From assembly GCA_002632325.1 (NCBI GenBank), contig NSJK01000004.1, positions 1 to 64,000 of the forward strand: a stretch of DNA of 64,000 nt, read 5' to 3'. The translations under genes and the position numbers were made by a program. The notes beneath the pieces are model-generated. The model did no database searches. It saw only the letters and a list, made by a program, of their open reading frames with translations, and was not told the origin of the DNA. Positions within the stretch are counted from its first letter, which is position 1. Each line of letters begins with the position of its first letter. The DNA is from Lysobacterales bacterium. GTDB taxonomy: Bacteria; Pseudomonadota; Gammaproteobacteria; Xanthomonadales; Rhodanobacteraceae. This document shows, piece by piece, positions 17,570 to 47,348 of the stretch.

Positions 17570-19285
17570 ATGATTCATCGCCCCACCCTGCTCGGTTGCG
17601 CGCTCGCGCTTGCCTTGTCGATCGCGACACCGGCTCAGGCCGCAATCACGATCGATCTGTCCTTCGTCAATCCGAGCTCGCCCGAATACCTGCGCTTCAA
17701 GTCCTTCGTCGATGCCGCGGTCGGCGGCAATCCCGGTTATGCGTTCTCGGCCGCCGATGCGGCCTGGATGTTCAAGCTCACCGGTCAGGCGCAGTACGCC
17801 AACCTCGCGGTGCAGATGGTCGAAGCTCAGGTCAGCGCCGCCGAGACCGCGATCGCCGGCGGCAACCGCCCCGAGATTTCCGGCGATCAATATCTCGAAG
17901 TCGGACCGATGATCGAGGATCTCGCGCTCACCTACGACTGGTGCGCGGCCTACGTGACGCCGACGCAGAAGACGCGCTGGGGCAACTATGCGCAACAGGC
18001 GGTGTGGAACGTGTGGAATCACGCTTCCGCATCCTGGGGCGGCAACCCGTTTCCGTGGGCGGGCTGGGGCGTGAACGACCCCGCCAACAACTATCACTAC
18101 AGCTTCCTGCGCGCGACGATGTACTGGGGCCTGGCATCGAACAATGCCACCTGGATCAACCTGCTGCAGAATGACAAGTGGCCCGAGCAATTGGCCTACA
18201 CCGCAACGCTCGCCGGTGGCGGCAGCGAGGAAGGCACCGGCTACGGCCTCTCGCACGGCACGCTGTTCGAGATCTATCACGTGTGGAAGGATTCGACCGG
18301 ACAGGACGTCGCCAACAGCAACGCTCACGTCAAGGACAGCATCGAGTGGTGGATCCACGCCACCGTGCCGACACTCGATCGCGTCGCCGCGATCGGCGAC
18401 CAGTCGCGTGTGTCCGAGCCGGTGATCTACGACTACCACCGCAAGCTCATGCTGCATGCACGCGCAAGTTCCAACGATGCCGCCGCGCGCGATGATGCCT
18501 CGTGGTGGCTGCACGCCATCCCCAATCAGGACATGGAGAGTGGCTTCAACTATCGCCACAACCTGCAGTCCGCTGGCGCAGGCGGCACGCCGCCCGCCTC
18601 GCTCGTCTACCACGGCAGCGGCACCGGGCAACTGTTCGCGCGCACCGGTTGGGATACCGGCGCGATGTGGCTCAATTTCAGCGCCGGCCCTTACGAGCAG
18701 AGCCACGCGCATCAGGATCAGGGTTCATTCACGCTGTTCGAAAACGACTGGCTCGCGGTGACCGAGAACATCTGGACCCACAGCGGCATCCAGCAAGGCA
18801 CCGACACCCACAACGTGCTGCGCTTCGAGCACAACGGCAGTATCGTGCCGCAGCGCACCGGCACCGAATCGACGATGACGGTGACACCGGGCAACGGCGG
18901 CGCGGTGCATGCAGTGGCCAACCTCACCCCGGCCTACGATGGCGATTCCGCAGTCGGCTCCTGGCAGCGCACGATCGACTTCGGCGCTCGCAAACTCACG
19001 GTCAGCGACGCCTTCACGCTCGGCGCCAACACGCAGGCGATCTTTCAGGTCAACACGCCCGCGCAGCCCATGATCAACGGGCTCACCGCCACCGCGGGCG
19101 CACTCAAGATCCGCGTGATCGCACCCGCCAATGCCACGCTCAGCGCGCTCGATTGGACCACTCGCAGCGATGGCGATGAAACCTACAACAGCGGCTGGCG
19201 GCTCGACGTGAGCGGCAGCAGCAGCGGTTACGTGGTCGAGTTCAGCACCAGCGACACGATCTTCGCCAACGGCTTCGAGGCTTGA
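17570..19285 (+). CDS. Secreted heparinase II/III-like polysaccharide lyase with C-terminal IFANGFEA tail
   Basis: 571 residues with a signal peptide (1-24, cut near 'PAQAA'). The N-terminal ~340 residues are helix-rich, as in an alpha/alpha-toroid, with likely active-site regions 'NNYHYSF' (~173-179) and 'GTGYGLSHG' (~222-230). The second part has the heparinase II/III beta-sandwich signature 'SHAHQDQGSF' (H379/H381) and 'HNVLRFEHNG' (~414). Such enzymes cleave acidic polysaccharides by beta-elimination; the substrate here is unknown. No other polysaccharide-utilisation gene is nearby. The last ten residues, DTIFANGFEA, nearly match the end of the M64 peptidase at 45672-47348. The next gene converges with only 15 bases between the stops. 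Confidence 0.8.
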   Translation: MIHRPTLLGCALALALSIATPAQAAITIDLSFVNPSSPEYLRFKSFVDAAVGGNPGYAFSAADAAWMFKLTGQAQYANLAVQMVEAQVSAAETAIAGGNRPEISGDQYLEVGPMIEDLALTYDWCAAYVTPTQKTRWGNYAQQAVWNVWNHASASWGGNPFPWAGWGVNDPANNYHYSFLRATMYWGLASNNATWINLLQNDKWPEQLAYTATLAGGGSEEGTGYGLSHGTLFEIYHVWKDSTGQDVANSNAHVKDSIEWWIHATVPTLDRVAAIGDQSRVSEPVIYDYHRKLMLHARASSNDAAARDDASWWLHAIPNQDMESGFNYRHNLQSAGAGGTPPASLVYHGSGTGQLFARTGWDTGAMWLNFSAGPYEQSHAHQDQGSFTLFENDWLAVTENIWTHSGIQQGTDTHNVLRFEHNGSIVPQRTGTESTMTVTPGNGGAVHAVANLTPAYDGDSAVGSWQRTIDFGARKLTVSDAFTLGANTQAIFQVNTPAQPMINGLTATAGALKIRVIAPANATLSALDWTTRSDGDETYNSGWRLDVSGSSSGYVVEFSTSDTIFANGFEA

Positions 19286-45671: not shown

Positions 45672-47348
45672 TCATTCGAAACCGTTGCGGAAAATCAGGT
45701 CGGTATTGACCTGAATCGTCCAGGTCCGCGTGCGCGTTGGCAGGGGACCCGGCTTCACGTAGGTGCTGTTGTCGCGCACCCGCACCTGCAGCGTGCGCGT
45801 TGCCGGAGTCGGCGCGTTCTGCGCGAACGGAAAGCTCTCCGTCCATGAGCCGGCAAGGTGCACGCCGTCGAGCCACCACTCGAAGACGAGATTGCCGACC
45901 GAAGGCTGCAAGGCATCGATACTGAAGATCTGCGTCGTCCCCGGCGCGTATTGCACCGCTTGCGCGGTCGGCGGTGATTCGCTGCCGGGCTCGATCAGAT
46001 CGATCCCGCTCGCGGGAACGCCCCAACCGCCCGCGTAAAGCCTGACCACATATTCCTGACGGCACGCGGGACAGAAATTCATTCCCAGATAACGCATCTC
46101 GCACTGGTCGACGGGGCGATACATGCCCGTGACCTGATACCGCGCGCCCTGGAACAAGCCGACACCCGAAGTGCCGGGCGGGGTCGGGATGGGATTGCCC
46201 GGCGTGAACCACGCCTTCCATTTGACCAAGGCCGGGTTGGTCTGGTTGGTGACATTGGGCTCGCAGGGCGAACCACCGGAAACGTCGCTGCAGGCCGGGA
46301 AGCCCGGGTAGGCCGTATCGTACTCATCGGCGAGGCCAGTGAAGGTGTGGCCGTACTCATGCAGGATGATCTCGCTCGCATACTGATTGGTCGAGGTCAC
46401 CGAGACATACCCGCCCGAGCCGCCGTACACCGTGTCATTGGCCACCACGAGGATTTCGTCCCAATCCGGATAGGCCGCCGCTGCCGCCAGCACCTTGCTG
46501 TCGTTGACCGTGAGCAGTCGATGAATCTGCCAGTCGCAGAACTTGCCGTCGAATGCGGTGTTGACGAACTGTCCCGCACGCGGATCGGTTTGCGCGCCAG
46601 AATCCGCGCAACAACTCGAGGTGGTGCAACCGGCCTGGTAGGGCGGATGATCGACCCCGGACTGACTCGATGCGACGAACAACGTCGCCCAGTTGACGAA
46701 ACTCTTGTACTCCAGATACGGCGTGACAGCGAAGAATTGATTCTCGAAGCTCGCCACATTGCTGTTGAACAGACTCTGCTGCGCGCTGGTGTAGCCTTCG
46801 CCGATCACGAGAATATCGACTCGATTCGACGCCGGCCCGGTGATCGCAGCGGGCGCAACGACCGGCGCGGCACTGCTCACGCTGCGCGCATCGGGCACGC
46901 GCGCGGCGATGGCCTGCAGGTCGAACGTTTGCTGCCTGCTGCCCTTTCCGAAACTGACCGTATCGGCCTCATCGAGCGGAATGCGCAGCACGAAGGCGCG
47001 TGACCCGGCCGTGTCGATGCGGGTGGACTCGATGGTTCCATCGTGTCCCGGATCGCGCGCGAATTCTCCGCGCAGCTGTGGCAGGTGCACGCGATGCTTG
47101 CCCAGATCTGCGCCTTGCCTATGCAGGCCATAGACGACTTCGTCATTGCGTTGACTCTGCAAGCTTCCTGCGTCGGCGCGCTGGCCCGGCGCCACGCCGT
47201 TGAGATCGACCTGCGCGTAGTAGACCGGACTGACCGTGCCCGTTCGATCGACTTCGAACACGATGTAATGAGCTGGCGCGGCCAGCACCGTCTGCGCAAA
47301 AACGGCCGCACCGGCGACCAACATGAATCGCCACGATTGCTGCTTCAT
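45672..47348 (-). CDS. Secreted M64 (IgA-type) metallopeptidase with C-terminal IFRNGFE tail
   Basis: 558 residues with a signal peptide (1-24). After an N-terminal beta-rich region (~25-160), the M64 peptidase domain begins with 'VDILVIGEGYT' (~178-187). The zinc site is 'HEYGH' (His330, Glu331, His334), followed by 'GLADEYD', typical of M64. A cysteine-rich patch ('CTTSSCCADSG', and 'CEMRYLGMNFCPAC' further on) probably forms disulfides. After the catalytic domain there is an Ig/PKD-like beta-domain of about 110 residues. The last nine residues, DLIFRNGFE, nearly repeat the end of the heparinase-like protein at 17570-19285. Single gene; the palindrome chain lies right after its stop. Confidence 0.88.
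   Translation of the reverse strand: MKQQSWRFMLVAGAAVFAQTVLAAPAHYIVFEVDRTGTVSPVYYAQVDLNGVAPGQRADAGSLQSQRNDEVVYGLHRQGADLGKHRVHLPQLRGEFARDPGHDGTIESTRIDTAGSRAFVLRIPLDEADTVSFGKGSRQQTFDLQAIAARVPDARSVSSAAPVVAPAAITGPASNRVDILVIGEGYTSAQQSLFNSNVASFENQFFAVTPYLEYKSFVNWATLFVASSQSGVDHPPYQAGCTTSSCCADSGAQTDPRAGQFVNTAFDGKFCDWQIHRLLTVNDSKVLAAAAAYPDWDEILVVANDTVYGGSGGYVSVTSTNQYASEIILHEYGHTFTGLADEYDTAYPGFPACSDVSGGSPCEPNVTNQTNPALVKWKAWFTPGNPIPTPPGTSGVGLFQGARYQVTGMYRPVDQCEMRYLGMNFCPACRQEYVVRLYAGGWGVPASGIDLIEPGSESPPTAQAVQYAPGTTQIFSIDALQPSVGNLVFEWWLDGVHLAGSWTESFPFAQNAPTPATRTLQVRVRDNSTYVKPGPLPTRTRTWTIQVNTDLIFRNGFE

Follow-up and report, generated by a model that had tools for sequence, protein, structure and literature searches.

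According to recent work, the substrates of the type II secretion system (T2SS) share no linear signal; their recognition is structural, and the selection of folded proteins is stated to be an open question (PMC12369372, PMC7949064). In other species, some substrates, such as VesB of V. cholerae, depend on the PDZ domain of GspC (PMC12369372). In PelI, an exposed nine-residue loop (loop 3) acts as a T2SS signal and contacts GspC and GspD (PMC7949064). Here, we describe a nine-residue linear tail that occurs twice in the window, i.e., the whole stretch of 64,000 nucleotides analysed, and that is almost certainly a genuine, so far undescribed C-terminal tag of exported proteins.

The heparinase II/III-like protein of the window has the terminus ...SGYVVEFSTSDTIFANGFEA, and the M64 peptidase has the terminus ...TWTIQVNTDLIFRNGFE, followed by the stop codon at once. 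The initial annotation had claimed that these two proteins share a C-terminal tail, and both copies were indeed read at the stop codons (Table 1). A six-frame search of the window for F-x-[DN]-G-F-E gave these two copies and no others. The Pfam and NCBIfam searches of both proteins returned no model spanning either tail.

Table 1. Positions of the two tail genes in the window and of the class A T2SS operon elsewhere in the source genome (G000).
Feature	Position	Strand	Basis or remark
Heparinase II/III-like exported protein gene, 571 aa, tail-ended	17570..19285	+	Pfam Hepar_II_III_C 3.2e-05
Likely Sec signal peptide of the heparinase-like protein (MIHRPTLLGCALALALSIATPAQA)	17570..17641	+	Sequence, heuristic score
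C-terminal tail of the heparinase-like protein, DTIFANGFEA	19253..19282	+	TGA stop 19283-19285
Exported M64 (IgA peptidase-like) metallopeptidase gene, 558 aa, tail-ended	45672..47348	-	Pfam Peptidase_M64 7.6e-40
Likely Sec signal peptide of the M64 protein	47277..47348	-	Sequence, heuristic score
C-terminal tail of the M64 protein, DLIFRNGFE, stop immediately after	45675..45701	-	Six-frame read
Class A T2SS operon gspC-D-E-F	L266:5923-11870 = G000:C30:99922-105869		GspC = T2SSC + PDZ

The source genome (3.36 Mb, 47 contigs) was searched with the pattern TTYNNNRAYGGNTTYGAR, which is a back-translation of F-x-[DN]-G-F-E. The search gave 41 matches, and the reversed control gave 0. The DNA surrounding the matches was taken and 40 non-redundant ORFs were read, one of which (L096) was rejected as a chance frame. 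In approximately 33 of the 39 real genes, the tail lies 0–18 residues before the stop codon, usually with 0–2 residues after the Glu; the motif of the remaining genes is internal, often in a linker. The consensus of the tail is D-x-[ILV]-F-x-[DN]-G-F-[ED]. Of the 34 terminal reads, with L096 still counted among them, 31 have Asp and 33 have [ILV], while the Asp/Asn position is divided 20 to 14; Phe, Gly, Phe, and Glu are fixed in these reads by the design of the search. The tail is acidic owing to its Asp, Asp/Asn, and Glu residues. Other ends found in the genome are IFRDGFD, LFADGFD, and IFEHGFE.

In the chitinase of locus L083 (8149-9408), the motif is in a linker with CBM5/12 on one side and the GH18 domain on the other, indicating that the terminal position is not obligatory. 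Internal copies were also seen in L093, L097, and L080. Meanwhile, the tails of L147 (4942-4971) and L208, from Marinicella and other genomes, are arranged in tandem at the C-terminus with a ten-residue period (DLIFKNGFESDIIFKDGFE and DLIFSNGFESDIIFKNGFE), which hints at a modular tag.

Under a lax signal-peptide rule, 27 of the 29 called tail genes passed in comparison with 139 of the 342 other called genes (p=3e-8), and the contrast became stronger (p=2e-10) when no further membrane helix was required as well. By this heuristic rule, nearly all tail genes carry the Sec/Tat signal peptide of T2SS substrates. The bodies of the tail proteins are unrelated and comprise S8 subtilases, M14 carboxypeptidase, M64 peptidase, heparinase-like proteins, beta-helices, propellers, kelch, glucose/sorbosone dehydrogenase, FG-GAP, and DUF2961. 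The tail occurs after peptidase, propeller, beta-helix, Ig, and choice-of-anchor ends alike. Several tail proteins have a choice-of-anchor Q, D, or J domain at, near, or immediately before the tail, and some of their regions match the models of rhombosortase-dependent or T9SS-dependent proteins. Bodies of these kinds bear named sorting signals in other systems; choice-of-anchor domains elsewhere precede sorting signals, usually of the surface-attachment type. When four tail peptides alone were searched against NCBIfam, the only match was the end of choice_anch_Q, which precedes one of the tails, and neither the tail peptides nor the two proteins of the window matched a curated CTERM model in NCBIfam. 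It should be noted that L071, L075, L081, and L095 encode four large exported paralogues located on different contigs and having the common end GANVTxVVxDCxDRIFA[DN]GFE[TS]P. This set is a local paralogue expansion; the S8 subtilase domain was confirmed in L071.

As 41 matches in the genome stand against 0 in the control, most copies lie at protein ends, and signal peptides are nearly universal among them, chance is excluded; the initial annotation had called it unlikely. Its proposal that exported proteins carry a new type of sorting signal at the C-terminus is supported by the strong enrichment at protein ends and among exported proteins, by the unrelated bodies, and by the lack of any shared named Pfam or NCBIfam domain at the tails. 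The C-terminal position that it assigned to the tail is true for most copies but not as a strict rule, a few copies being in linkers.

It is the peptide itself that is under selection. A comparison of 11 M64 orthologues, drawn from four families of the order, gave 70% identity over the last nine residues and 35% over the 60 residues before them, and both Phe residues of the tail are invariant. The AlphaFold2 model of the M64 protein has a low mean pLDDT of 53, reaching ~80 in the C-terminal Ig-like domain. Its last strand ends at residue 547, and residues 551–558 have a pLDDT below 50 and no secondary structure, so the model shows the M64 tail as a disordered coil beyond the final strand.

Many copies on unrelated genes of one genome might also be left by a mobile or repeated DNA element at gene ends, like the palindromic elements of Rickettsia, with the tail as its by-product. 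Nevertheless, no conserved nucleotide sequence was found: the codons of Gly (GGC/GGT/GGG/GGA) and Glu (GAG/GAA) vary freely while the residues stay constant, which argues that the tail is not a DNA element. In addition, the motif is confined to a single reading frame and a single position, and it is conserved as a protein motif across families that differ in base composition; we therefore find this origin barely conceivable. A common ancestry, in which the tail is the end of one C-terminal beta domain, is also very improbable. Although most bodies are beta-rich and the four paralogues mentioned above are alike further upstream, the sequences upstream of the tail are otherwise unrelated, and the tail follows many body types without being spanned by any Pfam or NCBIfam domain.

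The tails were counted in 200 genomes of the order. The number of GFE tails ranged from 0 to 113 per genome, and the maximum of tail-type motifs in one genome was ~147 net of the control. The genomes rich in tails, defined as having at least 8 net of the control, comprise most of families f3–f7, f9, and f12 as well as a part of f10. Among 272 genomes from elsewhere in the class, at most 3 matches per genome were found, which equals the control level. Among the GTDB matches listed, the named carriers are Marinicella, Dokdonella, Tahibacter, Pseudofulvimonas, Pseudomarimonas, Rudaea, and Lysobacterales MAGs, together with a few MAGs under other labels.

A GspD search in 30 tail-rich and 30 tail-poor genomes showed that the rich ones have two T2SS secretins, while the poor members of the source genome's own family have one. 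The source genome contains two GspD genes, one of class A and one of the Xps type (class B), and thus encodes the T2SS that T2SS substrates need. Class B, the common system, is Xps-like, with an XpsN-type protein having no PDZ domain. In the GspD tree, class A stands apart from Xps; the Xcs-type systems of Xanthomonas and the systems of genomes G156 and G176 lie on long separate branches and were ruled out as class A. The T2SSK Pfam model was discarded as a T2SS marker, as it matched 58 of the 60 genomes and also control genomes such as B. subtilis.

The gene order of the class A operon recurs in other families of the order. In the source genome, gspC(PDZ)-D-E-F is followed by genes for an ATP-binding protein, an FtsX-like protein, and a sigma-factor-like protein, and the class A pseudopilin and L/M genes do not adjoin it. 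In genome G110 of the same genus, a gene for a protein ending in NDVIFADGFD (L268:12301-14025) adjoins class A gspC, and this is the sole tail gene noticed beside the operon. The neighbourhood search of the tail genes for a dedicated reader revealed no recurring gene family.

The class A markers, GspD and, as the second one, GspE, were searched in the same 200 genomes as the tails. Tail-rich genomes made up 92 of the 99 with class A and 17 of the 101 without it (medians of 34 and 2 tails; Fisher p=3e-30). At the genus level, the corresponding values were 32/34 and 4/35 (within-family genus permutation p=5e-5). All five class A genomes of family f1 are tail-rich and all 29 negative ones are at the background; in family f2, 68 tails were counted in G091, the sole genome with class A, and 0–3 in each of the other 34. 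Class A gspD thus follows the tail count over the 200 genomes, as would be expected of a gene tracking the motif, which the initial annotation had suggested looking for.

Genus g24 has class A but only 0–6 GFE tails per genome. With class A as the presumed reader, this genus was expected to use a variant tail. As expected, F-x-[DN]-[RS]-F-E was found 85 times in G037, 57 in G099, 50 in G124, 48 in G134, and 47 in G009, the controls giving 0–3. Others have 11–35 copies, which makes 11–85 over most of the genus; the low ones are G089 (1), G183 (8), and G197 (6). The examples read in G037 and G099 are true tails ending in IFADRFE, IFQDRFE, and VFGDRFE. In the class-A-negative genomes of f1 and f2, this pattern is near the control level. 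The expectation drawn from the class A link therefore held. The covariation of the PDZ groove with the Gly-to-Arg change in the tail was too weak to claim. The reduced genome of G089 (1.8 Mb) keeps class A gspD and gspE and a divergent PDZ-like GspC (L362, G089:C4:77500-85000) but has no tails, and this combination is useful for separating the reader from the tag.

The exceptions to the class A link were examined by reading every GFE match in ten exceptional genomes. As expected, there were no real tails among the matches read in G060, G174, G189, and G019, which have no class A, or in G077. Meanwhile, G063, G097, and G171 of family f8 have approximately 12, 10, and 6 real tails, respectively, and no class A was found in them. 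Their T2SS clusters are of the Xps type, the stretches of G097 and G171 ending at contig ends before gspD, and no PDZ-type GspC was seen in the clusters read of the tail-positive f8 genomes, two of which are cut in this way. Two other f8 genomes, G082 and G127, show the opposite: class A is present and tails are absent. For seven more class-A-negative rich genomes, class A is present in close relatives, and the assemblies of these seven are mostly fragmented or incomplete; by their counts, four further f8 genomes lie just above the threshold. The association of the tail with class A is strong overall, but the rule that one occurs if and only if the other does is violated by the three tail-positive f8 genomes, which also reject a strict "class A only" model, and by G082, G127, and G089. 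Because of these exceptions, we regard class A as the best candidate found rather than as the established reader.

Our analysis demonstrates the tag itself as well as where it sits, the export context, how widely it is spread through the genome, how well it is conserved, and a statistical link to class A T2SS; a reader in the form of a secretion or maturation factor is plausible. That class A T2SS is this factor has, in our estimate, slightly less than an even chance. A more specific version, to which we give a probability of about one in three, is that the tail is a portable linear C-terminal T2SS signal read by the PDZ domain of GspC and co-evolving with its reader (GFE in most lineages and RFE in one genus). 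In our main reading, the peptide D-x-[ILV]-F-x-[DN]-[G/R]-F-[ED] would serve as a short address tag at the C-terminus of Sec-exported proteins. The protein would fold in the periplasm, leaving the tail as a flexible, exposed peptide after the last domain, and the reader would recruit it for transport across the outer membrane, with secretion as the presumable outcome. The second T2SS (class A gspC-D-E-F) would most likely be the reader, the contact being made by the periplasmic PDZ domain of its GspC, which is absent from the ordinary Xps-type system here. Against class A as the reader, other Gammaproteobacteria with T2SS are without the tail. Moreover, the fixed free carboxylate and the hydrophobic last residue of classical PDZ ligands are lacking: 0–18 residues follow the Glu, the ends are often charged or polar, and, with linker copies present as well, the tail does not fit classical PDZ carboxylate binding.

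A real sorting tag may instead have a reader other than class A (an enzyme of maturation or surface attachment, a chaperone in the periplasm, or a receptor in the outer membrane would be examples) that is co-inherited with class A in most lineages and makes class A a correlate. We consider this quite possible, at odds clearly below even. It agrees with the f8 genomes, where tail and class A are decoupled both ways, and with the choice-of-anchor bodies, given the surface-attachment signals that these usually bear elsewhere. In addition, phylogenetic profiling covered gspD and gspE only, and since the tail and T2SS are both inherited vertically, genes lost at the same nodes could yield the same profile. 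However, no neighbour gene recurs near the tail genes, the tail offers no Cys, helix, or basic cluster that a known sortase or lipidation pathway could use, and the variant-tail genus was correctly predicted from the class A link. The tails of G063, G097, and G171, where only an Xps-type cluster was found, would also be explained if any T2SS of the order, the Xps type included, read the tail and it were kept only where the secretome is large. This is unlikely, as the 29 f1 genomes and nearly all f2 genomes are tail-free, those tested have an Xps-type or other GspD, and the matches read in three f1 genomes were all due to chance.

Even as a mere sorting tag, the tail allows the exported proteome to be named and predicted across a large and little-studied section of one gammaproteobacterial order, and it provides annotators with a new model. 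If T2SS reads it, the choice by T2SS of folded proteins without a common linear sequence would become directly testable, and the graftable nine-residue tail would be a practical secretion tool. A linear signal read by the PDZ domain of GspC, as in the more specific version above, would break the accepted view that T2SS substrates have no shared linear signal.

Among the papers listed (in one search, the top 20 of 234), we found none on the motif or on such a tag in these genera. The initial annotation had set the tail apart from PEP-CTERM, LPXTG, the T9SS CTD, and MYXO-CTERM, and this distinction stands: the tail has no helix, no basic end, and nine conserved residues. GlyGly-CTERM/rhombosortase and MYXO-CTERM/myxosortase are similar in that short C-terminal tags are carried by many Sec-exported, T2SS-using proteins with the same kinds of body domains (PMC3237569, PMC11980579). 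Their tags, however, combine a signature with a transmembrane helix and a basic end, and cleavage takes place in the membrane, whereas in our tail mostly 0–4 residues follow the Glu, with no hydrophobic stretch, no basic cluster, and no Cys, which places it outside both families. PEP-CTERM/exosortase likewise involves a C-terminal tag on many exported proteins that was traced via phylogenetic profiling (PMC1569441), but the tail has no PEP motif, transmembrane helix, or Arg cluster.

The type IX CTD of Bacteroidota is likewise a signal at the C-terminus that is read once Sec export has taken place and that serves transport across the outer membrane. It is a conserved folded domain of ~70–80 residues, while the conservation described here is confined to nine residues preceded by unrelated sequences, and the host is gammaproteobacterial. 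The choice-of-anchor domains (Q, D, J) of NCBIfam are located immediately before the tail in several proteins; they are bodies that precede a signal, whereas the tail is a signal-like element without a model. The tail is thus a new variant among C-terminal sorting tags and would be categorically new only if its link to T2SS were proven. The closest systems also include VesB and PelI, which are Sec-exported folded enzymes whose substrate information involves the PDZ or second periplasmic domain of GspC (PMC12369372, PMC7949064). Their signals are structural, being presented on an Ig or Fn3 fold and specific to one or two substrates, in contrast to the linear tail found here on dozens of unrelated proteins.
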